A DNA stretch of 64,000 nucleotides from Verrucomicrobium sp. BvORR034 (lineage in GTDB: Bacteria; Verrucomicrobiota; Verrucomicrobiia; Verrucomicrobiales; Verrucomicrobiaceae). Location: positions 62,001-126,000 of the forward strand of contig NZ_BATQ01000049.1 in the NCBI RefSeq assembly GCF_000739635.1, in the 5' to 3' direction. Every line of letters begins with the position of its first letter. Within the stretch, counting starts at the first letter, position 1. Made by a program: the position numbers and the translations under genes. The notes beneath the pieces are model-generated. The model saw nothing but the letters and a program-made list of their open reading frames with translations, was not told where the DNA came from and did not search any database. Positions 20,664-40,995 of the stretch are shown here, piece after piece.

Positions 20664-22164
20664 TCTGGCAAAGAACGTGGACTGGGCGCGACTTAGCGCA
20701 CTGGTGGCAGACCGGCTGGGGCTTTCATACCCTGAGACGCGGTGGCCCGATCTTGAACGTGGACTGGGGCGTGCTGCATCGGAATTGGGGCTGGATCATG
20801 CGGGAGTTCTTGCTGAGCGGGTGCTCTCGGAGCCCACCGCAAAGAAGGAGCTGCAACTGCTGGCGAATCATCTCACCATCGGTGAGACCTATTTCTTCCG
20901 TGATGCCCGAACGTTTCAATACCTGGCGGAAAAGGTGTTGCCTGCGATCATTCGGGAGCGGCGGGGCAGTGAGCAGCGTCTGAGGCTGTGGAGCGCGGGT
21001 TGTTGTACGGGAGAGGAGGCGTATTCCCTGGCTATTTTGATCACACAGTTGCTGCCTGACTTGAAGAAATGGCAGGTCACCGTCCTGGCCACCGACGTGA
21101 ATGCCAAGTTCCTAAAGCACGCGATCAGCGGTGTGTATGGAGAGTGGTCCTTTCGTGAAGTGGCCGCGGCAGTGAAACAGAAATATTTCACTCCGGTGGG
21201 ACCGGGCCGCTATCAGATCCTTCCTGAATTGCAGGACCTGGTGAGCTTTGCCCATCTTAATCTGGTGGAAGACATCTATCCCTCCATCGCCACAGATACC
21301 AACGCGATGGACGTGGTGTTGTGTCGGAATGTCCTGATGTACTTTACTCCGTTGCAAATCAGCAAAGTGATTGAGCGGGTCAGGCATTGTCTCGTGGTGG
21401 GAGGCACTCTATGCGTGAGTCCAACGGAGGCATCGGCGGTGAATTTTCCAGGTTGGATACATCGTTCCCATGGGGGGCTGTCCTTCTATGAGAAGCCGAG
21501 TGAGGAGGATCATCACGAAGCATCGCGGGAGAGCGCCACGACGGAACTCTGGCACGGGCATGCGTATGAGGCGATGCAACCTGAATCCCCACGGCCCGTC
21601 AGCCCTCCCGTGCTGACGTCGTCCAAGGGACACTCTACCCCGTCTCATGAGGAGCCCGCGCCGCTCAGCTTCGAGGCAGCGCTTGCCCACTTCCAGGCGG
21701 GACGATATGTCAGCGCGACGGATATGCTGCTGGCACTGGCAGAGCCAGCGAAGAAACAGGCGGAGATCTTTGGGCTGCTGGCGAGGTCGCTGGGGAATCA
21801 GGGCCGGCTGACGGAAGCCCTGGAGTGGTGTGACCTTTGGATTGCCTCGGACAAGATGAACCGGGCCAGTCACTATCTGCGTGCCATGGTGCTCATGGAG
21901 AGTGGGGATCATGTTCAGGCGCGGGTCTCCTTTCGCAAGGCTCTGTATCTGGATCCAGACTTCGTTCTTGCCCACTTTGCCATGGGGCATCTGGCTCTAG
22001 GAGCCCACCGACATCGGGACGCCACGCGGCATTTTATCCAGGCAACGCGTTTGTTGCGTGAACTGCCCCATGATCAGTTGCTGCCGGAGTCGGACGGCCT
22101 TACGGCCGGTCGGCTCATGGAGACGATTGCCTCACTGGTGCCTGAAGAATCGCTTCACTCATGA
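20653..22164 (+). CDS. cheR: CheR methyltransferase with C-terminal TPR repeats (WspC-like)
   Basis: This is a 503-residue cytoplasmic enzyme that methylates receptor glutamates using S-adenosylmethionine. The start has GGGAGAGGGG close upstream and overlaps cheW. The N-terminal helical part carries LTIGETYFFRD, the Rossmann core LRLWSAGCCTGEEAYSLAI, and MDVVLCRNVLMYF, all standard for CheR. After a linker with Pro/Ser/Glu, residues about 335-480 form tetratricopeptide repeats (AALAHFQAGRYVSATDMLL, ASHYLRAMVLMESGDHVQA, VLAHFAMGHLALGAHRHRD). TPR-bearing CheR proteins typify WspC/FrzF-like systems that control surface behaviour rather than flagella. The stop overlaps the next cheW (ATGA). Confidence 0.93.
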   Translation: MTRSLAKNVDWARLSALVADRLGLSYPETRWPDLERGLGRAASELGLDHAGVLAERVLSEPTAKKELQLLANHLTIGETYFFRDARTFQYLAEKVLPAIIRERRGSEQRLRLWSAGCCTGEEAYSLAILITQLLPDLKKWQVTVLATDVNAKFLKHAISGVYGEWSFREVAAAVKQKYFTPVGPGRYQILPELQDLVSFAHLNLVEDIYPSIATDTNAMDVVLCRNVLMYFTPLQISKVIERVRHCLVVGGTLCVSPTEASAVNFPGWIHRSHGGLSFYEKPSEEDHHEASRESATTELWHGHAYEAMQPESPRPVSPPVLTSSKGHSTPSHEEPAPLSFEAALAHFQAGRYVSATDMLLALAEPAKKQAEIFGLLARSLGNQGRLTEALEWCDLWIASDKMNRASHYLRAMVLMESGDHVQARVSFRKALYLDPDFVLAHFAMGHLALGAHRHRDATRHFIQATRLLRELPHDQLLPESDGLTAGRLMETIASLVPEESLHS

Positions 22165-22715
22165 ATGCTGCCATCCATCAAGACGATGACCTTCAGGCTG
22201 CTGAGGCTGACCGGGTGACGCTCCGGGCCAGGGCGCAGGAGTTGGCCCGGGTGCCGGAATCACCGGTGGCACCGGACACCTTGCTGCATGTGCTGGAATT
22301 TGCCCTGGCATCCGAGCGCTATGCGGTGGAGGCGAAATTTGTACGTGAGGTATATCCCCTCAAGGATCTGTCTCCCCTGCCTTGCGCCCCCTCGTTTGTC
22401 GCTGGCGTGGTGAACGTGCGGGGGCGGATCCTCCCGGTGCTGGATCTGCGCCGATTTTTCGATCTGCCGGGCCGCGGCATCACAGACCTGCATCGTGTGA
22501 TCCTGGTGCAGGGCAATGATCTGGAGTTTGGGCTTCTTGCCGATGTGGTCACCGGCATGGTGACACTACCGGTGGGTAAGCTTCAGACGACCCTGCCTGC
22601 GATGCCCGGCATTCAGGCCCAGTTCCTCAAAGGCGTGACTGCAGACTGTCTCATCGTCATTGATCTGGCCCGGGTCATGGCGGATCCCGGCATCGTGATC
22701 CATGAGGAAATGTAA
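22161..22715 (+). CDS. cheW: CheW-like coupling protein (second copy)
   Basis: The 184-residue product has an extended N-terminus (about 40 residues rich in Ala, Asp and Arg) before a CheW domain: LLHVLEFALASERYAVEAKF, VREVYPLKDLSPLPCAPSFV, AGVVNVRGRILPVLDLRRFF, LEFGLLADVVTGMV and LKGVTADCLIVIDLARVM. The ATGA overlap with cheR implies coupled translation. It differs clearly from the first CheW in sequence, so the two are not a recent duplication and probably contact different partners in the array. cheB follows after 29 bases. Confidence 0.9.
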   Translation: MNAAIHQDDDLQAAEADRVTLRARAQELARVPESPVAPDTLLHVLEFALASERYAVEAKFVREVYPLKDLSPLPCAPSFVAGVVNVRGRILPVLDLRRFFDLPGRGITDLHRVILVQGNDLEFGLLADVVTGMVTLPVGKLQTTLPAMPGIQAQFLKGVTADCLIVIDLARVMADPGIVIHEEM

Positions 22716-22744
22716 GTTGCCAGGTTTTCATCCACTCACTGCAT

Positions 22745-23827
22745 ATGACTGAGGACGACATCCGGGTGCTCGTGGTGGACGATTCCGCCGTGGCCACCCT
22801 GGTGCTGGTTCACATCCTGCAGACGGATCCGAGAATCAAAGTGGTGGGGACGGTGAAGGATGGAAAGGCCGCAGTGGAGTTTGTCCGTATGCATCGTCCC
22901 GATCTAGTTCTCATGGACTTTCACATGCCGAGGATGGACGGAAGCGAGGCGACAAAGTCCATCATGCAGACGCAGCCTGTCCCGGTGGTCATTTGCTCCG
23001 GTGTGTCTGACCCACGAGAGATGCTGACCACGTTCCGCGTTTTGGAATCCGGGGCGGTTGCCTGTGTCGCGAAACCTGTGGGGACGGGCACGGCTGACGA
23101 CGGCCGGAAGATCGCCAACTTGCTCCAGACCGTGAAGCTGATGTCAGAGGTGAAAGTGGTGCGCCATTGGCCGGCCCCCACGATGGGGTTGGCACCTGTG
23201 CTGCCGGTGAATTCCATCCTTGCGGAGGCGGGCAAGCATCGGTTCAAGGCTGTCGGCATAGGGGCCTCCACAGGAGGACCAGCGGTTATCAAGGCGATCG
23301 TCTCTGCCTTGCCGCAAAACTATCCCATCCCCGTGCTGGTGGTACAGCATATCACGCCTGGATTCGCCGCAGGGATGGCCGAGTGGCTGGGCAAGGAGAG
23401 CCGGATGCGGGTGCAACTGGCGGTGGATGGGCAACTGGCTCAACCGGGAAACGTGTATGTGGCGCCCGACAGCAGGCATCTGGCCCTGACAGGCGGGGGG
23501 CTTCTGAGTGTGAATGAACGTCCCCCTGAGAACGGTCTGCGGCCCTCAGTATCTCACCTGTTCCGGTCACTGGCAGAGGTGTGCGGCAGCGACGCCATCG
23601 GCGTGTTGCTCACCGGTATGGGGAAGGATGGCGCGGCTGAACTGCGCCAGATGCGGGAACTGGGAGCGGTGACCCTAGTGCAGGACAAGGAGACGTGCGT
23701 GGTGAACGGGATGCCCGGCGAGGCCATGACGCTGGGGGCGGCCATGTACGTACTGTCCCCCGAGGGAATCGCCGCGGCGCTCGTGGCGCTGGCAAACCAG
23801 ACAGGCAAGAGGGAGGTAACAACATGA
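22745..23827 (+). CDS. cheB: CheB methylesterase response regulator
   Basis: CheB removes receptor methyl groups (or deamidates glutamine) when phosphorylated by CheA. The 360-residue protein has an N-terminal receiver (VLVVDDSAVATLVLVHIL, Asp in LVLMDFHMPRMDG, Lys in CVAKPVG) and a C-terminal esterase domain from about residue 160. The catalytic triad is visible: Ser in GIGASTGGPAVIKAIV, His in VVQHITPGFAAGMAEWL and Asp in VLLTGMGKDGA. With cheR it gives the system sensory adaptation. The stop overlaps the following kinase gene (ATGA), tying that kinase to the chemosensory operon. Confidence 0.95.
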   Translation: MTEDDIRVLVVDDSAVATLVLVHILQTDPRIKVVGTVKDGKAAVEFVRMHRPDLVLMDFHMPRMDGSEATKSIMQTQPVPVVICSGVSDPREMLTTFRVLESGAVACVAKPVGTGTADDGRKIANLLQTVKLMSEVKVVRHWPAPTMGLAPVLPVNSILAEAGKHRFKAVGIGASTGGPAVIKAIVSALPQNYPIPVLVVQHITPGFAAGMAEWLGKESRMRVQLAVDGQLAQPGNVYVAPDSRHLALTGGGLLSVNERPPENGLRPSVSHLFRSLAEVCGSDAIGVLLTGMGKDGAAELRQMRELGAVTLVQDKETCVVNGMPGEAMTLGAAMYVLSPEGIAAALVALANQTGKREVTT

Positions 23828-25098
23828 ACCCCGGCAGTGAAATGAAACCGGAACAAGTGGAAATCCTGGTGGCGGAGGACAGTCCGACGCAGGCCTGCAG
23901 GCTGGAGCACATCCTCAAGCAACAGGGCTACTCCGTCACGACCAAGTCCAACGGCAGGCTGGCCCTGGAGTCGGCCCGGTCCCGGCCACCCACACTGGTG
24001 ATCAGCGATGTCATCATGCCGGAGATGGATGGCTATGAATTCTGCCGCAGGCTGAAGGAGACTCCGGAGTTGAAACAGGTGCCGGTGATCCTGGTGACGG
24101 CACTGTCTGACCTGGAGGATGTCATCATGGGATTGAAGTGTCATGCCGACAACTTCATCCTGAAGCCCTATGACGAGGCTTACCTGCTGGGGCGGGTGAG
24201 GGAGGTGCTGGCGGCCGGGCCGGCCGAGCCCGCGGATCTGGACAGCCCTGGAGTGGATTTCGTGGTGGCGGGGAGCAGGCATAAAATTTCCGCGAACCGG
24301 ACGCAGATTCTGAATCTCCTGCTTTCCACCTATGATGCGGCGATCCACCGGAACCGGGAGTTGACGAGGGCCCAGGAGGATCTGCAACGGCTGAATGCCC
24401 GCCTGGAGGCGGCGAACAAAGAACTGGAAACCTTCTCGTACTCCGTCTCCCACGATCTGCGGGCGCCGCTGCGGCATGTGCGCGGCTTTGTAGGGTTGCT
24501 GGCGAAGCGTTGCAGCGAAGGGCTGGATGCTCAAGGGAAGGAGTATCTGGAACTGATTCAGCAGGCGACAGACAAGATGGGGCGCCTGATCGATGATCTG
24601 CTTTCCTTCTCCCGGACGGCGCACGCGGAGTTAAATCTGGAGGAGGTGGATGTAGGGAAGTTGGTAACGGAAGTGCGGAGGGAAATGGAGGCAGAAACCG
24701 CCGGGCGGTACATTGAGTGGCATCAGGGGCTCCTGCCGGTGTTGAGGGCGGATCCGGGGCTGTTGCGGCAGGTGTTTGTGAATCTGATTTCCAACGCCAT
24801 AAAGTACACCCGCCTCAAGGAGCGTGCGGTCATTGAGATTGGCACGGCAGACGGGGGCGGCGGCGATGATGTGATCTATATCCGAGACAATGGTTCAGGG
24901 TTTGACGCGAGCCAGACGCACCGGCTCTTTGGTGTGTTCCAGCGTCTTCACCGGGATGATGAGTTTGAGGGAACGGGCATTGGCCTGGCGACGGTGCAGC
25001 GGATCATCAATCGCCACGGCGGAAGGATCTGGGCAGATGGGGCCTTGAATCGGGGCGCCACGTTTCATTTCACCTTGGGGGCGCAGCCGGGGCGGTGA
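23824..25098 (+). CDS. Receiver-histidine kinase fusion, output of the chemosensory system
   Basis: The product is 424 residues from ATG 23824, which overlaps the cheB stop. Residues 10-130 are a receiver (ILVAEDSPTQACRLEHIL, Asp in LVISDVIMPEMDG, Lys in FILKPYD). A linker with FVVAGSRHKISANRTQILNL, then LLSTYDAAIHRNREL leads to a HisKA domain (FSYSVSHDLRAPLRHVRGFV) and a HATPase domain (NLISNAIKYTR, DNGSGF, GTGIGLATVQRII). There is no sensor or membrane segment, so its input is presumably phosphorylation of the receiver by CheA. The linker closely matches that of the receiver-PP2C protein at 25236-26690. The downstream target is unknown; the single-domain regulators at 18.9-19.9 kb are possible. 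Confidence 0.9.
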   Translation: MNPGSEMKPEQVEILVAEDSPTQACRLEHILKQQGYSVTTKSNGRLALESARSRPPTLVISDVIMPEMDGYEFCRRLKETPELKQVPVILVTALSDLEDVIMGLKCHADNFILKPYDEAYLLGRVREVLAAGPAEPADLDSPGVDFVVAGSRHKISANRTQILNLLLSTYDAAIHRNRELTRAQEDLQRLNARLEAANKELETFSYSVSHDLRAPLRHVRGFVGLLAKRCSEGLDAQGKEYLELIQQATDKMGRLIDDLLSFSRTAHAELNLEEVDVGKLVTEVRREMEAETAGRYIEWHQGLLPVLRADPGLLRQVFVNLISNAIKYTRLKERAVIEIGTADGGGGDDVIYIRDNGSGFDASQTHRLFGVFQRLHRDDEFEGTGIGLATVQRIINRHGGRIWADGALNRGATFHFTLGAQPGR

Positions 25099-25235: not shown

Positions 25236-26690
25236 CTATGGGCGTGACGCGCCTCCAATGCCCGCCAATTCTTCTTCGACTGCGGTGCCCGGACTGGCAG
25301 CCGGAGCTGCGGTGTGAAGATGGAGCACGTCCACGCCCACGAGGCACATGTCGTCTTCAAAATTGCCGGAGGCGGAGAAACTCTTGAGCTCGGCGATGAC
25401 GGTGTCGAAGAGGTCGGGGGTACGCAGTTTCACATGCCGGGCCACGAGCCGGGCCAGTTGCTCCTGCTCGAAGTAGGAACCATCCGGTGCCTCTATTTCA
25501 TAGAGCCCGTCTGTGAACAGCATGATGAGGTCTCCGGCGTCGAGGTCGCATTTCAGGCTGGGATAGGTGATGGTCTCCATGAGGCCCAGCACCGGGCAGG
25601 GCTTCTGACCCGGTAGTTCCAGAGGAGAGACGGCGTGGGTGATGCGGTTTACATGATAGGGTGCGGGATGGCCGGCATTGCTCCATTGCAGACGGGAGTT
25701 GGCCACATCCACCACGAGGTAGAACGCGGTGGCGAAAAGCGGGGTGACGGTCTGATGAAGGATGGAGCAGAGGGAACGGTTCACCTCCGTAAGGAATTTG
25801 CCTGGGTCGGATGCGGCAGCCCCCATCTCCTCCACCAGCCCGCGAATGATGGCGGTGACGAGGGCGGCACGAACCCCATGACCCATCACATCGCAAATGA
25901 AGACGCCAGCCTGATGGTCAGAGAGGCGGAGGATGTCAAAGAAGTCCCCTCCGAGCTCCGTGGTGGTGGCGTAGCGGTGGCAGAACTGAATGGCACTTTG
26001 TTCTGGAGAGGCTGAGGCTGGAAAGACGGGATAGTGGCGGGGTAGAAAAGACGACTGCAACTCGCGAGCCATCTCAAGATCTGCCTCCATTTCAGCATTC
26101 TTTTCGCGCAGCTGACCGGCCTGTTGCTCAAGCTTGTTTTTGGCGCTGCTGAGTTCGAGGTTTTTCTGGACGGCTGTTTCGTAGGTGGAGAGGAGAAGGT
26201 CGATGGAGTGCATTCGCCTGGCATTGAGCTCGTACTTGTGGCCGGCAAAGAAGATCTCTCTGACCTGCGATCCTTCGGATGCCCTGCGCAGTTCCAGGTT
26301 GGCCAGCACATACTGGATGCGTGAGAGCAGGAACTCCTCCTCGTAAGGCTTGACGATGAAGTTGTCCGCGCCGCATTCCAGTCCCCGGAGGATGTCCTTG
26401 GGATCGGAGAGCGAGGTCAGCAGGATGACCGGAAGGCCGATGAGCGCGGGATCATCCTTGATGTGGCGGCAGAGCTCGTACCCGTCCATCTCCGGCATGT
26501 TGATGTCTGTAATGACCAGAGTGGGCTGGTTCTGGCCGATGATCTGCAGGGCTTCACGTCCATTGCGCGCATTGATCACCCGGCAGCCCTGGCGCTCGAG
26601 GATGTACTGGACGCGCAACGCCTGGGTGGGGCTGTCCTCGACACTGAGGACCACCACATTTTTCATGCTGATTTCTTCGAGGGCGCTCAT
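25236..26690 (-). CDS. Receiver-PP2C (SpoIIE/RsbU-type) phosphatase
   Basis: The 484-residue protein (alternative start ATG 26666, MKNVVVLSVED) has an N-terminal receiver (Asp in LVITDINMPEMDG, Lys in FIVKPYE). Next is the linker FAGHKYELNARRMHSIDLLL, then STYETAVQKNLEL, a coiled coil, and a PP2C/SpoIIE phosphatase domain starting ARELQSSFLPRHYP, with metal-binding ELGGDFFDILRL, FICDVMGHGVRAALVTAII and DLIMLFTDGLYEIE. Such phosphatases usually act on anti-sigma-factor antagonists in partner-switching cascades. No STAS or RsbW partner is in this window. It ends the minus-strand operon, six bases after cheA, and shares its front half layout with the kinase at 23824-25098. Confidence 0.93.
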   Translation of the reverse strand: MSALEEISMKNVVVLSVEDSPTQALRVQYILERQGCRVINARNGREALQIIGQNQPTLVITDINMPEMDGYELCRHIKDDPALIGLPVILLTSLSDPKDILRGLECGADNFIVKPYEEEFLLSRIQYVLANLELRRASEGSQVREIFFAGHKYELNARRMHSIDLLLSTYETAVQKNLELSSAKNKLEQQAGQLREKNAEMEADLEMARELQSSFLPRHYPVFPASASPEQSAIQFCHRYATTTELGGDFFDILRLSDHQAGVFICDVMGHGVRAALVTAIIRGLVEEMGAAASDPGKFLTEVNRSLCSILHQTVTPLFATAFYLVVDVANSRLQWSNAGHPAPYHVNRITHAVSPLELPGQKPCPVLGLMETITYPSLKCDLDAGDLIMLFTDGLYEIEAPDGSYFEQEQLARLVARHVKLRTPDLFDTVIAELKSFSASGNFEDDMCLVGVDVLHLHTAAPAASPGTAVEEELAGIGGASRP

Positions 26691-26696
26691 GACGAT

Positions 26697-29087
26697 TTAG
26701 AGGAGTTTGCGAATGACATCCAACAGGTTCGACTGGTCAAAGTTGCCCTTCACCACGTAGGCGTTCGCCCCCACATCCACACCCCGCTCGTGATCCTCAC
26801 GGGAACCAAGGGCAGTGACGAGGACAACGGGCAGGTCTGCCAGCTTCTTGTCGGCGCGGATTTTGGCGGTCAGATCGAAGCCATCCATGCGAGGCATCTG
26901 GACATCGGAGACGAGCAGGTCGAATTCATGCGTCTTGAGGGCGGTATAAGCTTCGACGCCGTCCACGGCGATGGACACGTCGTATCCGGCGGACTGGAGG
27001 ATGTTCTTCAGAAGCATGCGGGAGGTCACGGAATCATCGGTGACAAGGATCTTGCGCGCGGGAGCCCCGATCCGACGGGATTTCATGGCCGCATGCCGCT
27101 TGCGCACCGGGGAGGGGGAGCGGGCGGCGGACTGAAGCAGGTCGGAGGTGTTGAGAATGATGGCCGGGGCGCCGGAGGGTAGCACGGTGGCGCCCGCCAC
27201 ATTCCGCACCCGGGAAATGGGCTTGCGCAGCCGTTTGACCAGCACCTCCTGCTCATTCAGGATGCCATCCACCGTGAACGCGACGCGCCGGTCGCCGTCG
27301 CCGAGGACCACGGAAACAACAAATTCGCTGGGGAAGGGATGCTCCCGTGGGGGGAGCTCCAGCACCGACTCCATGGACACAAGGGGCAGGCGATGCTCGT
27401 CCACCAGCACCGTTTCACGGTTCTCCACCGTCTGGATGTCAGAGCGCCGGTGGCGGTTCACCCTATCCACACTGGCGGTAGGTACGACAAACACGTGACC
27501 GGCGACCTCAACAAGAATACCTTTGAAGGTGGCGAGGGTCACGGGGACGGTGATGGTAAAGCAGGTGCCGGAGCCCATCGTGCTGGTGATGGCGATCCTG
27601 CCGCCCAGCTTCTCGACTTTCTCCTGAACAATGGCCATGCCCAGGCCGCGGCCGGAGATTTCCGTGATGATGGCACTGGTGGAAAGTCCGGACTTGAAGA
27701 CCAGTTCATGGGCCATCGTATCGTCGGACAGCGTGGCTTGCTCGCTGGTCAGATATCCGGCTGACACCGCGGCCGCCTTGATGCGGGCCGTGTCAAGGCC
27801 GCCACCGTCATCCTGCACACGAATCTCCACCTTGTTGCCATCTTGCGGGGTGACGGTGATTTCCAGACGGCCGCCCGGCCGCTTTCCCCGATCACGACGG
27901 ACTTGTTTGTCCTCAATTCCGTGATCCATGGCATTGCGCACGAGATGCAGCAGCGGATCCTTGAGCTCCTGCAGCACACGTTTGTCCATCTCCACCTCCC
28001 GACCACGGATGACAAGCTCGGCCTCCTTGCCGAGGTCGCGGGAAAGATCCCTCACCACCTTGGGAAAGAAGTCCAGCAGGGTCGCGCAGGGGAGCATGAC
28101 GAGGCGCTTGGTGTCATCGAGCAATTGTTCCACCAGAGCGCTGATGGAACGCTCGTCCTGGGCGGCGGCAGCGCTGGAGAGGGTGAGCTGCCTTTCCATG
28201 AGGCGGAGGTGCTCCGCAGTCCATTGGATGAATTCCTGGCACCGGTCGAGGGCTGCGCGATGGTCTTCGCCTGGGGCGGGGCGGACTAGGCGGTGCACTT
28301 TGGACCAGCGCTTTTGCCAGGTGACCATGTGGTCGGACAGCACGCGCAGGGACTCGGAATGCTGGTGGCTGGCGAGCTTGGCCGCCACCATCTCTTCCAC
28401 CTGGCGGAGGAGCGCATCCAAACGGCTGACGGGAATGCGGACAGTCTCTGTGGTGTAGGCGATGTCCGGCTCGTTCTGCTGGGGAGGTGGGGTTCGGTCT
28501 GCCAACCCAGCAGGCAAAGTGGGAAGGGGTTGGGCGGCGCTGGTTGAGGACTGCGGCACGTCCGGGGCAGGAGCTTCCTGAAGCCTACCTGGAGAGGGCG
28601 CTGAATCGGGTGGTGCAGGGCGCAGCAGTGACTGGATGCGCCGCACGGTTCCGGAGATGTTGTGCACGGGCACAGCTCCTGCGGCCGGGAGCGCCGCTTG
28701 CAGCAGCCGGGTGATGAGGTCAACCGCACCGTTCACCACATCGAAGCTTTCCTGGCTGATGTGCACTGTTGGCTTTTGCTTCCAGTGGGAGAAGACGCTC
28801 TCCAGCGCCTGGCAGAGTGTCTGGATGCTGCTGTGATCCACGGCTCCGGCGGCTCCTTTGAGACTGTGCGCCTCCCTGAAGATGGTTTCGAAGATTGGCT
28901 TGCGAGTTTCTGGATCTGTTGACTTCTCCGCTGCGAGGAGGCCGGATGTCAGCGCCTGGATGTGTTCCCCCGCCTCCACGGCGAAGGCCTCGCGGAGTTT
29001 GTCGAGGAACTCGTCGTCGGTCATGAAACGGTGAAGCTGACGTCGGGAGATGAGAGGAGACACGCCCACGGCTGTCTCAAACCCCAT
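26697..29087 (-). CDS. cheA: CheA histidine kinase with C-terminal receiver
   Basis: The product is 796 residues as drawn; ATG 29087 overlaps the receptor gene by 11 bases, and ATG 29024 (MTDDEFLDKL) is the alternative start. Domains in order are an HPt domain with phosphorylated His in FREAHSLKGAAGAVD, a Pro-rich linker, a dimerisation region, a HATPase (HLVRNAMDHGIED, VQDDGGGLD, SGRGLGMAIVQ), a CheW-like regulatory domain (ATFKGILVEVAGHVFVVPTA), and a receiver (ILVTDDSVTSRMLLKNIL, Asp in LLVSDVQMPRMDG). Fused receivers are typical of non-flagellar CheA proteins (WspE, FrzE) and may act as phosphate sink or output. It lies between its receptor and the PP2C output. Confidence 0.95.
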   Translation of the reverse strand: MGFETAVGVSPLISRRQLHRFMTDDEFLDKLREAFAVEAGEHIQALTSGLLAAEKSTDPETRKPIFETIFREAHSLKGAAGAVDHSSIQTLCQALESVFSHWKQKPTVHISQESFDVVNGAVDLITRLLQAALPAAGAVPVHNISGTVRRIQSLLRPAPPDSAPSPGRLQEAPAPDVPQSSTSAAQPLPTLPAGLADRTPPPQQNEPDIAYTTETVRIPVSRLDALLRQVEEMVAAKLASHQHSESLRVLSDHMVTWQKRWSKVHRLVRPAPGEDHRAALDRCQEFIQWTAEHLRLMERQLTLSSAAAAQDERSISALVEQLLDDTKRLVMLPCATLLDFFPKVVRDLSRDLGKEAELVIRGREVEMDKRVLQELKDPLLHLVRNAMDHGIEDKQVRRDRGKRPGGRLEITVTPQDGNKVEIRVQDDGGGLDTARIKAAAVSAGYLTSEQATLSDDTMAHELVFKSGLSTSAIITEISGRGLGMAIVQEKVEKLGGRIAITSTMGSGTCFTITVPVTLATFKGILVEVAGHVFVVPTASVDRVNRHRRSDIQTVENRETVLVDEHRLPLVSMESVLELPPREHPFPSEFVVSVVLGDGDRRVAFTVDGILNEQEVLVKRLRKPISRVRNVAGATVLPSGAPAIILNTSDLLQSAARSPSPVRKRHAAMKSRRIGAPARKILVTDDSVTSRMLLKNILQSAGYDVSIAVDGVEAYTALKTHEFDLLVSDVQMPRMDGFDLTAKIRADKKLADLPVVLVTALGSREDHERGVDVGANAYVVKGNFDQSNLLDVIRKLL

Positions 29088-30759
29088 TTGAGGCGGGTCC
29101 TGTCACAGTCTTGGGAACGGCCAGGGCGGCAGCAGCAGACTGGCTCGCCATGTGTTGCAGTTTCTCGCCCATTTCATTGAGGCGACGGGCCGCGGCTTCC
29201 AGGTGGCGTGCGCTCTCCACATTCTGACCGCTGGCCTGTTTGACGCTTTCCATGGCGGTGGCCACGTGGTCCATGCCCACCAGCTGTTGCTGGGTGGAGG
29301 CGGAGATCTGCTCGGCGGCTTGCGCTGCTTGTTTGACGCTCTCGGTGAGGGCCACGATGGAGTCGCCGGCCTGCGTGGATTGTTGCACGCCGGCGTCCAC
29401 GGCCTTGGTGCCCATCTCTGTCGCCATCACGGCGGCACTGGTCGCGTTCTGGATGTCCTTCAAGATGGCGCGCACCTGGGTGGTGGCCTGGCGGGACTGT
29501 TCGGCCAGGCTGCGCACCTCCTGGGCGACGACGGCGAAGCCGCGTCCCTGCTCACCAGCCTTGGCGGCCTCAATGGCGGCATTCACTGCCAGCAGATTGG
29601 ACTGGGCGGCAAGGTCCTCCACGGCAGTGACGATCTGGCCGATGTCCTGGGTTTGATCGCTGAGTCGTACCATGCTCTCTGCAATGGCCTCCATCTGCTG
29701 GCGGATGCGGTTCATGCCCTCCACACTGGCGCCGGCGGCCTTGCGACCGAGTTCAGAGATCTGGGCGGACTTTTGAGATGACTCTACGACATTGCGCGCC
29801 TTCTCACTGGAAAGGTGCACCGTTTGGCGCACCTCCTCCACGGTGGCAGTTGTTTCCGTGATGGCAGTTGCGGTTTGCGAGGCGGTGGCGGAGGCCTGGG
29901 TGGTGAAGTTCAGGATCTCCCGGGCGGAATAGCCCAGCACATCCACACTCTCGGTGATCTGGCTGGTCTGCGTATGCATGGCCTCATTGGCGGAGACCAG
30001 GGCGAACCGCTTTTCATCGATCTCTTTCAAAGCAGTCTTCAGTTCACTGCTCTGCCGGTCGATGGCGGTGAGCATCTGGTTGAAGACATCGGTAAACTTG
30101 CCCAGCTCATCGCCACCGAAGCGTTCCGCACGCACGCTGTAGTCTTTCTTGTCCGCCACCTGCTGGGCAGCGCTGGCGAGCGCGAGGATGGGCCGGGAGA
30201 TGATGCGCTGGAAGATGGATGCGAGAAAGGCCGTGAGCAGCAGGGAAGCTACCAAGACCACGACCCCAATCTCCACGTAGCGGCGGAGATGGGCGTTGAT
30301 GCGCTGGGTGTCTGCGACCAAGCAGATAGTGCCGATGCGTTTGCCCCCCAGGGTGACCGGACGGGGCAGGATGATGCGGTTCCCGGTAAATACCGTTTTT
30401 TCGTCTGTGGGAGCGGTGGCGGAGGGCGGCTCGCCCCGCTCGCGCAGGAAGGTGGCGAAGAGCTTGCCGTCTTCGCCATAGAGGGCTGCGGAGACGATGT
30501 CCGGCTCCGCGCTCAGGGCGCTGAGGATCTCTTCGGCTTCGCCCTTGGTGTCCGTTGCCTCGGAGAGGGAAAGTGTGGCGGTGCTGTTGGCCGCCAGTAC
30601 ATCCGCCAGGATGGTAAGGGTGCGCGTCTGGTCCGCCCGATAGGTGGCGCGCTCATAGGTCACGTAGGCGAGGCTCGCGAGGAGGAGCGATGCCGTGCTC
30701 GACAGCAGCACACCCAGCATGAGCTTGCGTTTGATGGGCACTTCTCGAAAACGAATCAT
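29077..30759 (-). CDS. Methyl-accepting chemotaxis protein with CHASE8-type periplasmic domain
   Basis: This is a 560-residue inner-membrane receptor; the start is preceded by AAGGAA. A first membrane helix lies at about residues 13-33. A periplasmic domain (about 34-165) with LADVLAANSTATLSLSEATD, AEEILSALSAEPDIVSAALY and GEDGKLFATF matches the CHASE8 pattern of YfiN-type cyclases. A second helix (about 166-187) and HAMP follow (ISRPILALASAAQQVADKKD). The signalling domain has the tip EDLAAQSNLLAVNAAIEAAK, then AGEQGRGFAVVAQEVRSLAE. It lies 18 bases after the yfiR gene, suggesting that the periplasmic YfiR protein controls it. No typical small-molecule binding pocket can be named. Confidence 0.92.
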   Translation of the reverse strand: MIRFREVPIKRKLMLGVLLSSTASLLLASLAYVTYERATYRADQTRTLTILADVLAANSTATLSLSEATDTKGEAEEILSALSAEPDIVSAALYGEDGKLFATFLRERGEPPSATAPTDEKTVFTGNRIILPRPVTLGGKRIGTICLVADTQRINAHLRRYVEIGVVVLVASLLLTAFLASIFQRIISRPILALASAAQQVADKKDYSVRAERFGGDELGKFTDVFNQMLTAIDRQSSELKTALKEIDEKRFALVSANEAMHTQTSQITESVDVLGYSAREILNFTTQASATASQTATAITETTATVEEVRQTVHLSSEKARNVVESSQKSAQISELGRKAAGASVEGMNRIRQQMEAIAESMVRLSDQTQDIGQIVTAVEDLAAQSNLLAVNAAIEAAKAGEQGRGFAVVAQEVRSLAEQSRQATTQVRAILKDIQNATSAAVMATEMGTKAVDAGVQQSTQAGDSIVALTESVKQAAQAAEQISASTQQQLVGMDHVATAMESVKQASGQNVESARHLEAAARRLNEMGEKLQHMASQSAAAALAVPKTVTGPASNGV

Positions 30760-30777
30760 GGTGAGTTCCTTCCTGGG

Positions 30778-31386
30778 TCAGCCTCCACGGTGAATCTTTC
30801 CCAGCCGAACGAGCTTGGGACTGACCTCCAGACCGGCACGCTGGGCCGAGGCCACATTGATCTCGAAACCGACCTTGCCGCCCTGGAGGGTGAAGTTGAT
30901 GACGCCGCCCTGGTCACAAAATTGATCGCTCTCCCCCACGGTCAGGACGCCAGACCCTTGCAGGGCCGCGAGAATCTCCCCCAGACGACCGATCTCCGAA
31001 CGGCTGACGAAGATGAACTGGCAGCCGCGCAGGTCATCGACCCGGCGCCCGGTCCGGACCACAATCTTGCGGCCGTTGGATGTTTCTCCCCGGGTCGCGG
31101 ATTGCAGGGCACCGCCAAAAGGATCGTCTCCGAGCACGCCGATCATCAACGGGGCATTGGCGTCCGGGAAGGAACGCGCCGGCCATTTGACGAACTGGGA
31201 GAAGTTGAAGAGGAACACGGCCTTCACCTCATATTCCTTGGACTGGGCCTTTGCGGCAGGGGCCGGAAGGAGGATGGCGAGGAGTAGTGCGAGGAAAATA
31301 CACAGAGGCGGCCGGGGGGCGCGGCAGTCCCGGGGCCGGAGGTGAAACCCGGGATGGTGGGGCGCGTTGCTAGCCATGGTATTCAT
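30778..31386 (-). CDS. yfiR: YfiR-family (DUF4154) periplasmic protein
   Basis: The product is 202 residues from ATG 31386 (or 31377); the longer frame from 31533 overlaps the receptor gene upstream. A signal sequence (LCIFLALLLAILLPAPAAKA) precedes the family core: YEVKAVFLFNFSQFVKWPAR, LMIGVLGDDPFGGAL, CQFIFVSRSEIGRL, VLTVGESDQFCDQGGVINF, KVGFEINVASAQRAGLEVSP and KLVRLGK. In Pseudomonas, YfiR holds the CHASE8-bearing cyclase YfiN inactive from the periplasm. Here the next gene encodes a CHASE8-bearing chemoreceptor and the previous one a TonB receptor, so YfiR probably passes an envelope signal to the receptor. The partner is inferred. Confidence 0.88.
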   Translation of the reverse strand: MNTMASNAPHHPGFHLRPRDCRAPRPPLCIFLALLLAILLPAPAAKAQSKEYEVKAVFLFNFSQFVKWPARSFPDANAPLMIGVLGDDPFGGALQSATRGETSNGRKIVVRTGRRVDDLRGCQFIFVSRSEIGRLGEILAALQGSGVLTVGESDQFCDQGGVINFTLQGGKVGFEINVASAQRAGLEVSPKLVRLGKIHRGG

Positions 31387-31453
31387 GGAGGGAGTGCAGC
31401 GAGTGGGACGGAAATAGGTTGATGGAAACAACAGTGAGTGGCTCGGGCGATTG

Positions 31454-33718
31454 TCAAAAGCTGATCCGGAGGCCAAGCACCCCACCGAAGGTCTCCTGCG
31501 GCTGGGCATAGGGGAGGAAGGCGGTGGTGGCATTCTGGTTGTTGGTCAGATTGCGGATGCTGGCATAGACTTCGACATGGTCCGTCGGCTTGTAGAGCAG
31601 ATGAAGATTGAGCTCCCACGGTGTGTTCATCTCGTCTGCCAGATACCCGGCCTGCAGATTCCTGGGAGTGGAGCGGGCGACGAGACTCGGGGTGATGAAG
31701 AACTTGTCGGTCACCGCCCAGGTGGCACCCAGGCGGAAATTGTGGGCAGAGATGCCATTGAGCCCGCTGAATTCGCCTGCGGTCTCCGCTTCGAAGGTGG
31801 TGTAGGAGTAGGAGAACCAGGTGCTGAGGCTACGGGCGAGTTTGACACGACCGTAGAGGTCCACGCCCGCGTTGTGGCTCGTGCCGCTGTTCACCGTGCG
31901 GGTGAGGGTGCGGGTCTGGGTGCCGGCGACATCAAGGAACACCAGGTCCTGGAGGATGTTGGGCTCAGAGCCGACATCGGAGACGAGGATGAGGTTGCTC
32001 TGCTCCCCGTAGTACATGCTCAACCCGAGATCCACCTTGTCCTTCACATAGGTGAAGCTGAGCTCGTGGGTCTTGGACGTCTCCGGCTGCAGCTCAGGGT
32101 TCGAGGTGTTAAGCACGTCTCCGCGATCATAGGTGGCGAAGCCGAAGTATGGTGCCGGGGAGATGTACGCCCAGGAGTAGGTGTACTTGGCGGTGAGTTC
32201 GTCCGTCACCTTGTAGATGATCGCGCCACGCGGAGTGTAGGAGGGATCCTCGATGCGCGTGTCCTTGTCCACGCGGCCGCCGGCGATGACTTTCAGGGAG
32301 GGGGTGATCTCCCAGCCCACTTCGAGATAGGCCCCATAACGCTCAAAGTCCACCTCCACCACCCGGGGGATTTCCTGGCGGGACTCGGGATTGCCGGCCT
32401 CAGTGTAGTAAACAAAGCTCCCGCCCTGCTGAACGATGCTGCCATCACTGCCGCGGTTTGCTCCCCCTGGCACCGTGGACTTGGGGATGATGTCGTAGTT
32501 CGTATAAATGCCGCCCAGCAGTGCTGAAACGGTGGGGGAGAACTCGATGCGCAGCGTCTCCTCAATACTGAGGCTGGTACCGTTCGCGTACTTGTAGTCG
32601 TTGAAGAACCAGTGGTTCTGATCCTGGGGGAAGATGTACCGGCTGTGGGGGTCCACTTCGTACCAGTTGTAGGTGATGGCGGAATCCAGCGTCACTTTGT
32701 CTGACATGTGCCACACGTGCTTGGCTTCTGTGACCCACGAGCGATCCTGCCATCGTGCCTCAGGCAGGAACCCGAGAACGGCAGGACCGTACCCCTCGGA
32801 ACTGCTGCGCTCGGACTCTCGATACCAGCTTTGAATGGTGAAATCACCGTACTCAAACTTGGCAAAGGCATTCAAGCCATAGTCCATGCGATCCAGGCTG
32901 GTGCCATGGCCCTTGGTCTTCGCGATGTTCCGGAATTCCTTCCACCAGTCGGGATATTCGCGGTCCAACCGGCTGAGTTCTGAGTCGTGATACTGGACAT
33001 AGCCGGTCAGAGAGATGTTTTCCTCGGCATCGAAGACCTTGCCGAAGGAGCCCCAGGCTTCGCGTTCTGCATTGAAGCCGCCTTCAATCGCCCCCTGGAT
33101 GGCAAAGCGACCGTCTGCAGGCGGGTTCTTGGTTTTGACATTGATCACCGCGCTGATGGCATCCTGCCCGTACAAGGTTGAGCCGGGACCGTAGATCACT
33201 TCAATCTGCTCGGCACCACGAACGCTGAAATCGGAGCGCAGGGGGAAGTATTCACCGCCCGGCGGGTTCACCCTCATGCCATTGACCAACACCACGATCT
33301 TGTTGTTGCCGGTGATGCCGCGAACAGAAACCTGGGTGCCGATCTCTGTGAACAGATATTCCGAGACATCCATGCCGGGAAGATCCCGCACCACATCACT
33401 GAGCTGGGTGTAACCTCGCAGGTTGATGTCGGTGCTGTCGATGACGATGACAGTCCCGGGAGCATCCGTGGCTTTTTCAGCCTTTTTTGAGGCGGTGGTG
33501 ACGGTGGCCACCTGCACCTTCATCAGTTCTTCAAGGCTCAGCTCCTTGAGTTGCTGAGTCTGTGCGGGTGGGTTGATCTGTGCCGCGCCTTCGGGAGCCT
33601 GGGCGGTGAGGTCGGGGGCGTAGAGAAGGAGCGCGAAGGCTCCGGCGATGCCTGGGCGGCAGACAGCCTTGGGGACGGCTGCCGCGCCACTCCGGGCCAG
33701 AGCATGGTAAGAGTTCAT
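31454..33718 (-). CDS. TonB-dependent outer-membrane receptor
   Basis: The 754-residue protein has an N-terminal signal region (IAGAFALLLYAPDLTAQA), then KELSLEELMKVQVATVTTAS, a form of the TonB-box region seen in receptors paired with YfiR. A plug domain follows (VIVIDSTDINLRGYTQLSDV, VSVRGITGNNKIVVLVNGMR, IEVIYGPGSTLYG, AISAVINVKTK). The rest is a beta-barrel of about 22 strands ending in ETFGGVLGLRISF with terminal Phe. It would import or sense an extracellular ligand using TonB energy; siderophore, vitamin or sugar cannot be told apart. As first gene of the five-gene operon it is the likely outer-membrane input to YfiR and the chemoreceptor. Confidence 0.93.
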   Translation of the reverse strand: MNSYHALARSGAAAVPKAVCRPGIAGAFALLLYAPDLTAQAPEGAAQINPPAQTQQLKELSLEELMKVQVATVTTASKKAEKATDAPGTVIVIDSTDINLRGYTQLSDVVRDLPGMDVSEYLFTEIGTQVSVRGITGNNKIVVLVNGMRVNPPGGEYFPLRSDFSVRGAEQIEVIYGPGSTLYGQDAISAVINVKTKNPPADGRFAIQGAIEGGFNAEREAWGSFGKVFDAEENISLTGYVQYHDSELSRLDREYPDWWKEFRNIAKTKGHGTSLDRMDYGLNAFAKFEYGDFTIQSWYRESERSSSEGYGPAVLGFLPEARWQDRSWVTEAKHVWHMSDKVTLDSAITYNWYEVDPHSRYIFPQDQNHWFFNDYKYANGTSLSIEETLRIEFSPTVSALLGGIYTNYDIIPKSTVPGGANRGSDGSIVQQGGSFVYYTEAGNPESRQEIPRVVEVDFERYGAYLEVGWEITPSLKVIAGGRVDKDTRIEDPSYTPRGAIIYKVTDELTAKYTYSWAYISPAPYFGFATYDRGDVLNTSNPELQPETSKTHELSFTYVKDKVDLGLSMYYGEQSNLILVSDVGSEPNILQDLVFLDVAGTQTRTLTRTVNSGTSHNAGVDLYGRVKLARSLSTWFSYSYTTFEAETAGEFSGLNGISAHNFRLGATWAVTDKFFITPSLVARSTPRNLQAGYLADEMNTPWELNLHLLYKPTDHVEVYASIRNLTNNQNATTAFLPYAQPQETFGGVLGLRISF

Positions 33719-34014: not shown

Positions 34015-35340
34015 TCACGATGCCACGCCTTCAGCCGGAGTATCCACAGTGGGTAGGATCTTGGAGATGTTAGTGAAGTCTGCTTTGAGCATGATTCGCA
34101 CTCTCACCCCGGGCCCTTCTTCAAGATTCTTCACCTGAAGGTGGCCGCGATGCAGCTCGACGATGCGTTTGGCCACGGGAAGACCCAGACCAGTGCCTTC
34201 ACCAGTGGGCTTGGTGGTAAAAAAAGGTTCGAAGATGCGACGCAGTATCTCCGGCGGGATGCCGGGCCCATGGTCGATCACTTCCAACAACACCACCTGA
34301 TCTCCGGGACGCAGCAGGTCCATCTCACGCAGGCCTTCGTTGCGATGCATGGTGATCAGCTCGCCATGCATGGTGCGGACCTGAACGACGCCGCCATTCG
34401 GCATGGCCTGTGCAGCATTGATGATCACATTGATGATGACCTGAACCAGCTTGGATCGATCCGCCCGAATCTCAGGCACATTTTCGGTAAGTTCCGTCAC
34501 GACCTGCACTTTCCGGCGGGTAAGTTCATGCTGTACCATGTGAATGGCGTCAGTCACCAGATCATTCATGGAGCAGGGCCGCATCTGCAACGTCTCTGAG
34601 CGGGAGAAGTCGAGCATCTCGTGGATTATGCGTTCAGCACGAGAGATCGCGTCTTGCATGTAGTCGATCATGGTGCAGGCGGGTTCCGGCAACGTGGTGC
34701 GACGTCGCTGGAAGTAGTCCACACCCATCTGAATAGTGGCGAGCGGGTTCTTCACTTCATGGGCAACGCTGGCGGCCAGACGGCCCAGAGAGTCGAGCTT
34801 TTCCGCCTGAATGAGCTGCATCTGGGCTGTCTCCAGTTCCAGCTTGGCAGCGCGGAGGCGCTCGTTGAGTTCAGCCATCTCCCGGCGGTGGCGCTGGCGC
34901 TCCACGGCGTAGAGAATGGAGCGCATGAGCAGATCACCGTTGATCGAGTCTTTGGGGAGATAGTCCTGGGCACCTTGCTGCACAAAGGTGAGTGCCAACT
35001 CGTGATCCGTGGTGCCGCTGAGAATGGTGATGGCCGTGAGTGGGGCCAGCTCCCTTACCCGGTGATAGGTCTCTGGGCCGTGGCCGTCGGGGAGATTGAG
35101 ATCCAGCAGAATGACGTGGAACGGGTCGTCACCCGCCTCCTCCAGCCTGGCGCTGGCATCGCTCAAAGAACGGGCGTGGATCAACTGAGGCGTTTTTTCG
35201 AAAGGCGCGTCTTTAAGATGCTCCTGGAGCAGAAGGAAATCGGAGTCATTGTCCTCGATGCAGAGGATGCGGATGGGAAGGCGGGCCAGATCCACGGCCT
35301 TGAGCTGGGCACCCTCCAGCAGCGTTTCTTCGGCATTCAT
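34015..35340 (-). CDS. Receiver-histidine kinase fusion
   Basis: The product is 441 residues. The N-terminal receiver (ILCIEDNDSDFLLLQEHLKD, Asp in VILLDLNLPDGHG, Thr position SGT, Lys in DYLPKDS) is followed by a coiled coil and a kinase core: GRLAASVAHEVKNPLATIQM (His phosphoacceptor), NVIINAAQAMPNGG, DHGPGIPPEILRRIFEPFFT and GTGLGLPVAKRIV. There are no membrane segments. Receivers of the LLDLNLPD type are common in phosphorelays with Rcp1-like regulators. It is on the same strand as, and upstream of, the TonB receptor operon but 296 bases away, so a shared transcript is uncertain. Confidence 0.9.
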   Translation of the reverse strand: MNAEETLLEGAQLKAVDLARLPIRILCIEDNDSDFLLLQEHLKDAPFEKTPQLIHARSLSDASARLEEAGDDPFHVILLDLNLPDGHGPETYHRVRELAPLTAITILSGTTDHELALTFVQQGAQDYLPKDSINGDLLMRSILYAVERQRHRREMAELNERLRAAKLELETAQMQLIQAEKLDSLGRLAASVAHEVKNPLATIQMGVDYFQRRRTTLPEPACTMIDYMQDAISRAERIIHEMLDFSRSETLQMRPCSMNDLVTDAIHMVQHELTRRKVQVVTELTENVPEIRADRSKLVQVIINVIINAAQAMPNGGVVQVRTMHGELITMHRNEGLREMDLLRPGDQVVLLEVIDHGPGIPPEILRRIFEPFFTTKPTGEGTGLGLPVAKRIVELHRGHLQVKNLEEGPGVRVRIMLKADFTNISKILPTVDTPAEGVAS

Positions 35341-35656: not shown

Positions 35657-37885
35657 CTAGCTGGGAAGACTGAAGAAGAAGGTGGCCCCTTTTCCAGGAG
35701 ACGAGTCCACCCAGATCTGGCCATGATGACGCTCCACGATGCGCTTGCAGAGAGCCAGTCCAATGCCGGTGCCTGGATACTGCTCCCGGGCGTGCAGGCG
35801 CTGGAAAATGACAAAGATGCGGTCAAAGAACTTGGGCTCAATGCCGATGCCATTGTCGCGGATGGAGATGACCCACTCGCCCCGACAGGGCTGAGCACTG
35901 ATGTGAATGTGCGGCGTCTGCTCGCTGCGGAACTTGATGGAGTTACCGACAAGGTTCTGGAACACCTGGCGCAGCTGGAGCTCATCTGCATTTACGGTGG
36001 GTAGCGTGTCTGCGGTGATGACCGCGGAAGACTCTTTGATGGAGACTTCCAGATCGCCCAGAACAGACTGGATGAGCTGGCCGCAGGAGACGGGGCCCAA
36101 CTCCCGCCCCCGGGTGCCGACGCGTGAATAAGAGAGCAGGTCCTGGATGAGGTTGCGCATGCGGGCGGCGCCATCCACCGCCGTGGCGATGAACTGGCCC
36201 GCCTCCTCATTGAGCTCGCCCTTGTACCTGCGTTCCAGGAGTTGCAGGTAGCTGGTGATCATGCGCAGGGGTTCCTGAAGATCGTGGGAGGCGATGTAGG
36301 CGAACTGCTCCAGCTCCTGGTTGGAGCGCCGCAGATCTTCCTCGAACCGCTTGCGCTTCGTGATGTCGTGCATGATGGCGGTGCAGATGACCCGGTTTCC
36401 GGTGTGGGTCTCGCTCACCGACATGATGAGTGGAACGATGCTGCCGTCCTTGCGGCGTCCGAGGAGCTCCCGGCTCTGGCCCACCCGTTCGGCATCGGGC
36501 GCGGCAGACGCATCCGAGCTCGAGTGGGCGGGGGAGAGCAGGTGGGGCGCAGGGACGATGACGCTGATGTTGCGGCCGATGATTTCGCCGCGCTGGTAGC
36601 CGAAGATCTGGGCTGCAGCCGGATTGATGGACTGAATGAGCCCCTTGTCGTCCATCGTGACAATGGCCTCCACCGCTGTTTCGAGGATGGAGCTGAGACG
36701 CGCCTCGCGGTCGCGGAGTTCCAGTTCTGCTCGCTTGCGGTCAGTGATGTCCGTGGCGATACCACCGAGGGCGATGACCTGGCCGTCCGTGTCCAGAACC
36801 GGGAACTTCACGCTCACATAGGTATGGGCCTCGCCGGCATGGGGGGCGATTTCTTCCACGACCATGGCCTGTCCTGTGGCGAGCACCTTCGCGTCATTGT
36901 CGCGAAAGGCCCGGGCAAACTCCGGGGGGAAGATGTCGTAGTCGCTTTTGCCCGCCATCTGCTCTCTGGTCAGATGAAACAGCTCTTCAAAACGCCGGTT
37001 CACCATCTGGTAATTCCCGTCCCGGTCCTTCAGGAAGACCACTGCGGTGGTGTTGTCGAGAATGGCTTGAAGGCGGGCTTCCAGTTCCAGTTGAGCCCGG
37101 ACCGCCTTGCGTTTGGCAGTGAGATCACTGGCGATGCCCAGATAGCCAGTGGGCTGGCCGGAGTCATCCCTCATGATCGTGACGGTGAGCATCACGGGCA
37201 GCCGGCTGCCGTCCTTGCGGAGGTACGTCCATTCGTTCTCGTCTGGAGGCCCGAGGAGAGCCTTGGCGACAAAGGTGTGGAAACCAACCTCCACGGGGTA
37301 GCCGAGCTCCTGTGTCAGGGAAGCAGCCCTGCGGGCGATCTCCTGTGGATCATGGAAAATGGAGGGGCTGGTTTTTCCGATGACCTCTGCGGCTTTGTAG
37401 CCCAGGAGTTGCTCTGCTCCGACGTTAAACCCCTGGATGATGCCGTCAATTCGACACGAGATGATGGCAAGATTGGCCCCGTCCAGCATGGCGCGTTGCA
37501 GGGCGCTCTTGGCGCGGAGTTCATCTTCAAGCTGTTTGAAGCGGGTGGTGTCACGAGCTGCGGCGAAGATGATTTGCCGGTCCATGTCCGGTTGGGCGCG
37601 CCATTCCAGCCAGCGGTAGGAGCCGTCCTTGCACCGATAGCGGTTTTCAAAGGCGATGGTGTTGGCTCCGGTATTGATGCGAGCGGCCTCTGCCTCGGTA
37701 CGGGCAAAATCATCCGGGTGGATGAAGGCACGGTAGGGCTGGGCCATGAGCTCCTCCGTGGAGTAGCCGAGCGTGTTTTCCCAGGCGGGATTCAGCCGCT
37801 TGAAGTAGCCGTCAAACCCGGCGATGCACATCAGATCCAGCGAGTGATCGAAGAAGCTTTTCAGGTCGGCTTCGTCACTGTTCAT
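35657..37885 (-). CDS. Soluble multi-PAS histidine kinase
   Basis: The product is 742 residues from ATG 37885, which has GGGGAGA close upstream; the open frame runs further 5' without support. Four PAS domains follow one another: [83 protein letters not shown] motifs are visible after them. The kinase core has [20 protein letters not shown] (His), [29 protein letters not shown] and [18 protein letters not shown]. There are no membrane helices, so it senses a cytoplasmic signal such as redox, light or small ligands. This type usually phosphorylates Rcp1-like single-domain regulators, as at 19427-19855. Confidence 0.92.
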
Positions 37886-38016
37886 GGTGCTTATCTCCCC
37901 GGAATTTGTTCCACGTCCGCTAATATTAGCGAAACGCTTTGCCGCTTGGCAAGAACGTAGTTGGGTATTGGCGAACAGCCACAACCCGCCTGGCGATGGG
38001 GTCGGAGGCATCTGAC

Positions 38017-39080: not shown

Positions 39081-39095
39081 GACAGCCATCTCCGG

Positions 39096-39130
39096 CACTT
39101 TTCACTTTTTACTTGCCACTTTTTACTGAG
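39096..39130. repeat. T-rich repeat flanking the four-helix-bundle gene, ilvB side
   Basis: The plus strand reads CACTTTTCACTTTTTACTTG, then CCACTTTTTACTGAG. It is the inverted relative of 38681-38712 and lies just after the ilvB stop codon at 39133. Together the two could be ends of a small inserted unit, or sequence words acquired with the gene. Confidence 0.65.
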
Positions 39131-40860: not shown

Positions 40861-40878
40861 GAGTTGGTCTCCTGAAAA

Positions 40879-40906: not shown

Positions 40907-40995
40907 GAAAGGTTCAATCGGCAATCGAAAATTGCAGTTTTTTGGTCAAAGTGGCATTTTTTCAAACTGTGATGGCCTAAAAATTGGCGAATTGA

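Follow-up and report, generated by a model that had tools for sequence, protein, structure and literature searches.

Organization of the locus

The 64,000-nucleotide stretch of the genome of Verrucomicrobium sp. BvORR034 analyzed here (contig NZ_BATQ01000049.1, positions 62,001 to 126,000; hereafter the window) carries a minus-strand operon in which genes for a TonB-dependent receptor, the periplasmic protein YfiR, a chemoreceptor with a CHASE8 domain, a CheA with a C-terminal receiver, and a receiver-PP2C response regulator succeed one another. Their order and the gaps between them (67, 18, −11 and 6 bases), as given in an earlier interpretation made without database searches (the sequence-only reading), were confirmed to the base upon recomputation. 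The receptor (31454-33718), which is the proposed outer-membrane input, is made of a plug and a barrel (Pfam, 4.6e-18 and 5.6e-28). YfiR (DUF4154, 30778-31386, Pfam 1.7e-43) has a signal-peptide-like N-terminus; its open frame extends to 31533, and a start at 31386 gives a protein of 202 amino acids, a length also called in L117, a related locus described below. The chemoreceptor (29077-30759) combines CHASE8 (residues 41-148, 30316-30639) with HAMP (1.8e-7) and MCP signaling (1.1e-33) domains. The sequence-only reading had set the identity of its periplasmic domain as a test, and Pfam returned CHASE8 at 3.1e-12, with 47.1 bits over a cut-off of 27. Pfam also assigns the CheA-receiver (26697-29087) and the receiver-PP2C protein, which is of the SpoIIE type (25236-26690).

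Association of YfiR, CHASE8 and TonB-dependent receptors

The window genome (8.58 Mb in 200 contigs) contains a single CHASE8 place and a single DUF4154 place, and the two adjoin. Our survey of 387 Verrucomicrobiota genomes located CHASE8 in 49 of them (82 places, 81 of which yielded an open frame) and YfiR in 42 (70 places), and YfiR lies directly upstream, on the same strand, of 58 of the 82 CHASE8 places. Since the single copies adjoin and the surveys reveal the co-occurrence of YfiR with CHASE8 and with receptors, chance adjacency was ruled out. The CHASE8 outputs labeled in this survey, using our own phmmer and hidden Markov model sets, are for the most part histidine kinases. Chemoreceptors were labeled in two cases, the window and L037, and in none of 91 Pseudomonadota CHASE8 proteins. 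The kinase counts are lower bounds because some YfiR-paired sensors stayed unlabeled (17/54 and 18/79 in the two surveys).

A TonB-dependent receptor is encoded within 4 kb of 75 of the 96 YfiR-CHASE8 pairs, compared to 5 of the 31 CHASE8 genes without YfiR (Fisher p = 9e-10 on pooled counts, ignoring relatedness). The two surveys agree on this point: a receptor accompanies 36/47 pairs in Verrucomicrobiota and 39/49 in Pseudomonadota (90 places from a 398-genome survey), against 3/23 and 2/8 CHASE8 genes without YfiR, respectively. Pairs were counted only where their upstream sequence exceeded 3.3 kb; repeated sensor sequences, the window, L037 and 15 pairs from the receptor scan described below were left out, the latter because the receptor was present in them by design. 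The receptor could simply be co-regulated, the pathway controlling its expression or sharing a regulon with it while taking no input from it. Two-component and other regulators often adjoin transport genes under their control, and no receptor is encoded within 4 kb of 21 of the 96 pairs, as such an arrangement would allow. Against this explanation, the association tracks YfiR rather than CHASE8, and a segment described below is specific to YfiR-linked receptors. We regard mere co-regulation as quite unlikely.

Relatives carrying a chemoreceptor output

The window receptor is 95% identical to one in Verrucomicrobium sp. BvORR106; among proteins of solved structure, the colicin I receptor and BtuB are closest to it in sequence. 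It belongs to a distinct subfamily, sharing 55, 50 and 47% identity with three YfiR-linked receptors and about 25% with the next one. For this reason, an alignment of the four subfamily receptors was scanned against a genome collection of 84,980 species, which returned 29 loci. A CHASE8-MCP protein together with the receptor, YfiR and Che genes is found in six loci, namely the window, L117, L115 (the same place as L037, in genome G276), L119, L120 and L123. The adjacency of yfiR and the chemoreceptor gene, which the sequence-only reading had set as a test, is conserved in relatives. L115 encodes, in this order, Hpt, CheW-CheW, the receptor, YfiR, CHASE8-MCP, a second MCP, CheA-receiver, CheB and receiver-PP2C, with gaps of −32 to +30 bases. 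L119, taken with L294, adds a receiver-kinase and a receiver-PP2C, and L120, taken with L293, has on the opposite strand CheW, CheR, CheW, further MCPs, CheA-receiver, CheB and a receiver-kinase. Tandem receptor and YfiR copies precede one CHASE8-MCP gene in both L119 (1959-7594) and L123 (6885-12750), an organization in which several receptors may feed one array. Like the window, L115, L117, L119 and L120 are assigned to Verrucomicrobiota by records or survey, and the record of L123 is an uncultured bacterium.

In a 149-row CHASE8 tree, the six CHASE8-MCPs sit within one 13-row set (Shimodaira-Hasegawa-like approximate likelihood ratio support of 96), and the MCP output requires 3 changes compared to a mean of 5.9 for shuffled labels (0 of 500 shuffles as low). 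CHASE8-MCP proteins may have a single origin. In 11 other loci (L118, L121, L122, L124-L128, L130, L131 and L134), which include Lentisphaerota, Planctomycetota and Armatimonadota records, receptors of this subfamily stand beside YfiR and a kinase with CHASE8. The receptor-YfiR-chemoreceptor gene set is conserved within a mostly Verrucomicrobiota group and is larger than first described.

YfiR and its CHASE8 partner

The window YfiR matches solved YfiR chains at 1e-7. Residues 160, 162 and 183 of YfiR have been proposed to meet the AAVVF motif of the sensor YfiN (Malone 2012, PMC3375315), and the patch is kept in the window protein as V160/F162/L183. In an alignment of 149 YfiR-paired CHASE8 proteins, the F of AAVVF is present in 141. 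Among 42 CHASE8 matches without a YfiR partner, ten of which are gapped at this place and some of which are HAMP-only or cut by contig ends, it is present in 23. A fairer comparison gives 141/147 paired versus 23/32 unpaired proteins (p = 1.5e-4, ignoring relatedness). The corresponding residues of the window chemoreceptor (61-65, 30565-30579) read ATLSL, with L in place of F, as in the L117 protein; the residue is Y in L119 and F in L115, L120 and L123.

We also searched for covariation among 142 filtered YfiR-CHASE8 pairs, with 200 shuffled pairings as a control. No significant signal emerged, the top z of 5.8 comparing with a shuffled mean of 5.4 and a maximum of 8.6. The top pair links YfiR S238, equivalent to H177 within the YfiB-binding surface of P. 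aeruginosa YfiR (PMC4887326), with CHASE8 T60 beside the AAVVF motif, and shuffled pairings score higher. The block expected from Malone 2012 contains 8 pairs above z 3 versus 2.5 expected, a count matched by 274 of 13,952 same-size blocks, and its mean is matched by 1,524 of them. A YfiR-CHASE8 contact is likely by homology, without support from covariation at this depth.

Two side observations concern these families. The CHASE8 kinase-receivers of L102, L104, L106, L110 and L111 have neither YfiR nor a labeled TonB receptor in their loci, and the F of AAVVF is gapped in them; they are perhaps a YfiR-independent CHASE8 branch. Furthermore, DUF4154 matches lie within open frames of 681 to 1077 amino acids in G086:C7, G235:C80, G320:C70 and G320:C392; these may represent fusions of YfiR to larger proteins, perhaps sensors.

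Receptor segment preceding the TonB box

YfiR-linked receptors have a segment resembling LxxLSLEELMxxxV directly before the TonB box. In the window receptor it corresponds to residues 57-68, LKELSLEELMKV (33515-33550, minus strand), which we propose to be a YfiR-docking helix. Among 50 receptor loci (two of them without a frame) in eight genomes, the motif occurs in 8 of 10 YfiR-adjacent receptors and in 0 of 38 others (shuffled rate of 4%). Overall, it is found in 69 of 94 YfiR-linked receptors of at least 600 amino acids (shuffled rate of 6%), a set of interrelated proteins whose motif was composed after members had been seen; many of the misses resemble variants. L132 and L133 of Gemmatimonadota encode receptors of the window subfamily (39% identical over most of their length) that are devoid of the segment, and these loci of about 20 kb contain neither YfiR nor CHASE8; CHASE8 was not found in the whole genome of L133 either. 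The segment is also absent from the receptor of L129, on a 3.7-kb contig. A single one of the remaining YfiR-free receptors in the scan, L141, has a motif match, elsewhere in the protein. Pfam matches of the window receptor with E up to 1 comprise plug and barrel models only, and no STN domain.

The structure of the L117 receptor was predicted with AlphaFold alone and with YfiR in one chain. The mean predicted local distance difference test score (pLDDT) of the receptor alone is 32 for residues 11-20, 35 for residues 21-30 and 61 for residues 31-40, which form the TonB box region (predicted template modeling score, pTM, of 0.82). With YfiR, these values become 59, 70 and 33 (pTM of 0.68). This contrast, from a single pair of runs with no unrelated protein as a control and with a lower pTM in the presence of YfiR, suggests that the segment would become ordered only with YfiR and that the TonB box region would be loosened.

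YfiB, the lipoprotein partner of YfiR in YfiBNR systems, offers a parallel to the proposed docking segment, as its activating region, too, is N-terminal and wraps around YfiR (PMC4887326, PMC4655355). By eye, the N-terminal FTPEQVAAM of E. coli YfiB (L113, 3626-4108) resembles LSLEELM of the receptor segment, a candidate case of convergence on YfiR binding. A query with E. coli YfiB returned two OmpA-like matches in the window genome, on other contigs and in frames of 405 and 522 amino acids; these being only generic OmpA-like matches, a YfiB encoded elsewhere in this genome was rejected.

YfiR could instead act as a binding protein for a substrate imported by the receptor, the loaded form signaling to CHASE8 with no need for a receptor-YfiR contact. 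YfiR is similar to one lobe of a periplasmic binding protein (PMC4655355), and its pocket for F57 of YfiB weakly binds vitamin B6 and L-Trp (PMC4887326); the 75 receptor-associated pairs out of 96 would be expected from such a role as well. Nevertheless, the known affinities of YfiR for small molecules are in the ten-millimolar range (PMC4887326), and this explanation accounts neither for the YfiR-linked segment, nor for its absence in L132 and L133, nor for its predicted ordering with YfiR. We consider it unlikely, although less so than co-regulation.

Chemosensory pathway and outputs

The sequence-only reading confined the system to the five minus-strand genes. That part stands, and the system also includes five genes on the plus strand (20178-25098) that had been left out. 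These encode CheW (20178-20663), CheR with TPR repeats (20653-22164; CheR 6.4e-44, TPR_2 6.3e-11), a second CheW (22161-22715, 1.5e-28), CheB with a receiver (22745-23827) and a receiver-histidine kinase (23824-25098, the start being deduced from the sequence within a frame open from 23695), all assigned by Pfam. This plus-strand half converges on the minus-strand genes, with 137 bases between its end and the receiver-PP2C gene. The minus-strand CheA contains Hpt, HATPase_c, CheW and receiver domains, its dimerization domain scoring below the Pfam cut-off, and the receiver-PP2C protein keeps the GGD, D.xGHG, TDG and DD motifs in a three-protein alignment. Two single-domain receivers are encoded on the minus strand beside the plus-strand half (18938-19330 and 19427-19855; Response_reg, 7.4e-17 and 4e-16), and their membership is uncertain. 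PP2C as the output was the earlier proposal; the receiver-PP2C assignment was upheld by Pfam, but the receiver-kinase, the adaptation genes and the two single receivers had been overlooked.

Together, the two halves form a chemosensory pathway that includes both methylation enzymes and two response regulators of multidomain type. It resembles pathways devoted to alternative cellular functions (ACF) and is made complete by the plus-strand genes joining those of the minus strand. ACF pathways are marked by CheR-TPR fusions and multidomain response regulators, including receiver-phosphatases (PMC3447774), and the window has both a CheR fused to TPR and the receiver-PP2C and receiver-kinase proteins.

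Ordinary motility taxis, in which the CHASE8 chemoreceptor would steer a flagellum or pili, would be favored by the presence of FliP in the window genome and by the two single receivers, which could act like CheY. FliP was not found in four of five genomes carrying the system (one a 95%-complete metagenome-assembled genome, three of unstated completeness; the L117 genome was not part of this search, and pili were not searched for), which makes taxis less likely. Moreover, the cluster contains a receiver-PP2C and a receiver-kinase, and CheR-TPR is typical of ACF clusters (PMC3447774). Within G393 and G394, no MCPs were found besides two that lie inside this cluster, and the window genome has two further CheA-receiver clusters (L297 and L298). 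A motility role in the window strain is unlikely, and taxis as the general explanation appears highly improbable.

STAS proteins were found at 9 places in G000, none of them on the window contig (C152). In L299 (4289-7124, G000:C102), STAS, STAS, HATPase-like and phosphatase-like genes lie in a row that, read by eye, is RsbRST-like, and this area is a possible, unlinked candidate for the PP2C output target.

Two histidine kinase genes (34015-35340 and 35657-38011, minus strand) lie upstream of the receptor gene on the same strand, and two kinase genes are likewise labeled upstream of the receptor in L117. Further along, a gene for a 126-residue four-helix-bundle protein of the 23S_rRNA_IVP family (38718-39098, minus strand, Pfam 1.8e-41) is flanked by genes which we take to encode the large (39133-41061) and small (38126-38671) subunits of acetolactate synthase.

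Proposed mechanism and relation to known systems

We propose, with a probability of about 0.6, that the TonB-dependent receptor replaces YfiB, captures YfiR and thereby frees the CHASE8 chemoreceptor of an ACF-like pathway of the Wsp kind. Periplasmic YfiR would bind CHASE8 at the AAVVF-like motif and hold the chemoreceptor in one signaling state. The receptor would stand in for the lipoprotein YfiB by means of the short helix before its TonB box, which would capture YfiR depending on ligand occupancy or TonB engagement. Release of YfiR from CHASE8 would shift HAMP and the MCP tip and change the activity of CheA, whose phosphate would pass to the two regulators, receiver-PP2C and receiver-kinase, with CheR-TPR and CheB adapting the array. 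Two elements of this scheme had been anticipated by the sequence-only reading. The replacement of the cyclase by a YfiR-gated chemoreceptor is supported by the MCP domain, fits the anatomy of the proteins and corresponds to a general form described in Malone 2012, the gating contact itself being a prediction. Similarly, co-occurrence, the N-terminal segment and the modeling contrast argue for a receptor that feeds YfiR, through a contact that is predicted as well.

Several observations weigh against this mechanism. The window chemoreceptor deviates from the F found in 141 of 149 paired sensors, the YfiR-CHASE8 pairs do not covary significantly, 21 of the 96 pairs have no receptor nearby, and the YfiR-linked subfamily receptor of L128 shows no more than a weak variant of the segment. 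The motif was assembled from members already seen, and the docking helix comes from one pair of AlphaFold runs. No PP2C gene is labeled on the 27-kb contig of L123, nor CheR within the 20 kb of L115. Every protein contact is one that we infer, as are the sign of the signal, the ligand and the PP2C target.

The system shares with YfiBNR of P. aeruginosa and E. coli, and with HmsCDE of Yersinia, YfiR and its patch residues, a sensor with a CHASE8/PAS-like periplasmic domain and HAMP, and the AAVVF motif whose F most paired sensors keep. It differs in having an MCP signaling domain instead of a GGDEF diguanylate cyclase, a TonB receptor where YfiB would be expected, no YfiB nearby, and L for the F of AAVVF. 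Malone 2012 (PMC3375315) proposed the YfiR-PAS unit as a modular core and described divergent modules, mostly without YfiB, in which MCP domains, kinases or GGDEF/EAL pairs replace the output of YfiN. Compared to these modules, the window adds the receptor partner, its N-terminal segment and a whole Che cluster; the word TonB is absent from that text. A chemoreceptor output for a YfiN-like sensor (Malone 2012) and phosphatase outputs of ACF pathways are already published. The receptor-YfiR link was not found in the literature searched by titles and abstracts, most subscription papers lying outside the search, so that it has possibly been published elsewhere. The published module rarely has a chemoreceptor as its output, and it is the partnership with TonB receptors, seen in both phyla surveyed, that deserves further attention.

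The Wsp pathway and other ACF pathways likewise comprise two CheW, CheR-TPR, CheB, CheA with a receiver and multidomain response regulators. In place of the diguanylate cyclase WspR, the window has PP2C and kinase outputs, together with a CHASE8 receptor proposed to be gated by YfiR. In systems of the FecA-FecR type, an N-terminal element of a TonB receptor signals to a periplasmic partner, a role proposed here for the element preceding the TonB box. However, the window receptor has no STN domain but a short segment, and its partners are YfiR and a CHASE8 sensor rather than FecR and a sigma factor.

More broadly, and at slightly less than even odds in our estimation, YfiR-CHASE8 could be the general partner of a large class of TonB receptors, a helix before the TonB box docking YfiR and the output fused to CHASE8 reading occupancy or TonB pull. 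If so, this output could be a kinase, a cyclase, a phosphodiesterase or a chemoreceptor, YfiBNR would be a special case with a lipoprotein in place of the receptor, and a TonB-receptor signaling route would exist alongside FecA-FecR and the two-component systems linked to receptors. The yfiB gene is missing from nearly all of the more distant yfiN-yfiR operons (Malone 2012, PMC3375315), which leaves their outer-membrane input to be explained; if confirmed, a TonB receptor equipped with a dedicated segment for docking would supply that missing input. Uptake receptors would then drive chemosensory arrays, also in bacteria in which FliP was not found, and receptor-YfiR-sensor chains in several bacterial groups may represent a little-noticed means of reporting the activity of uptake receptors.

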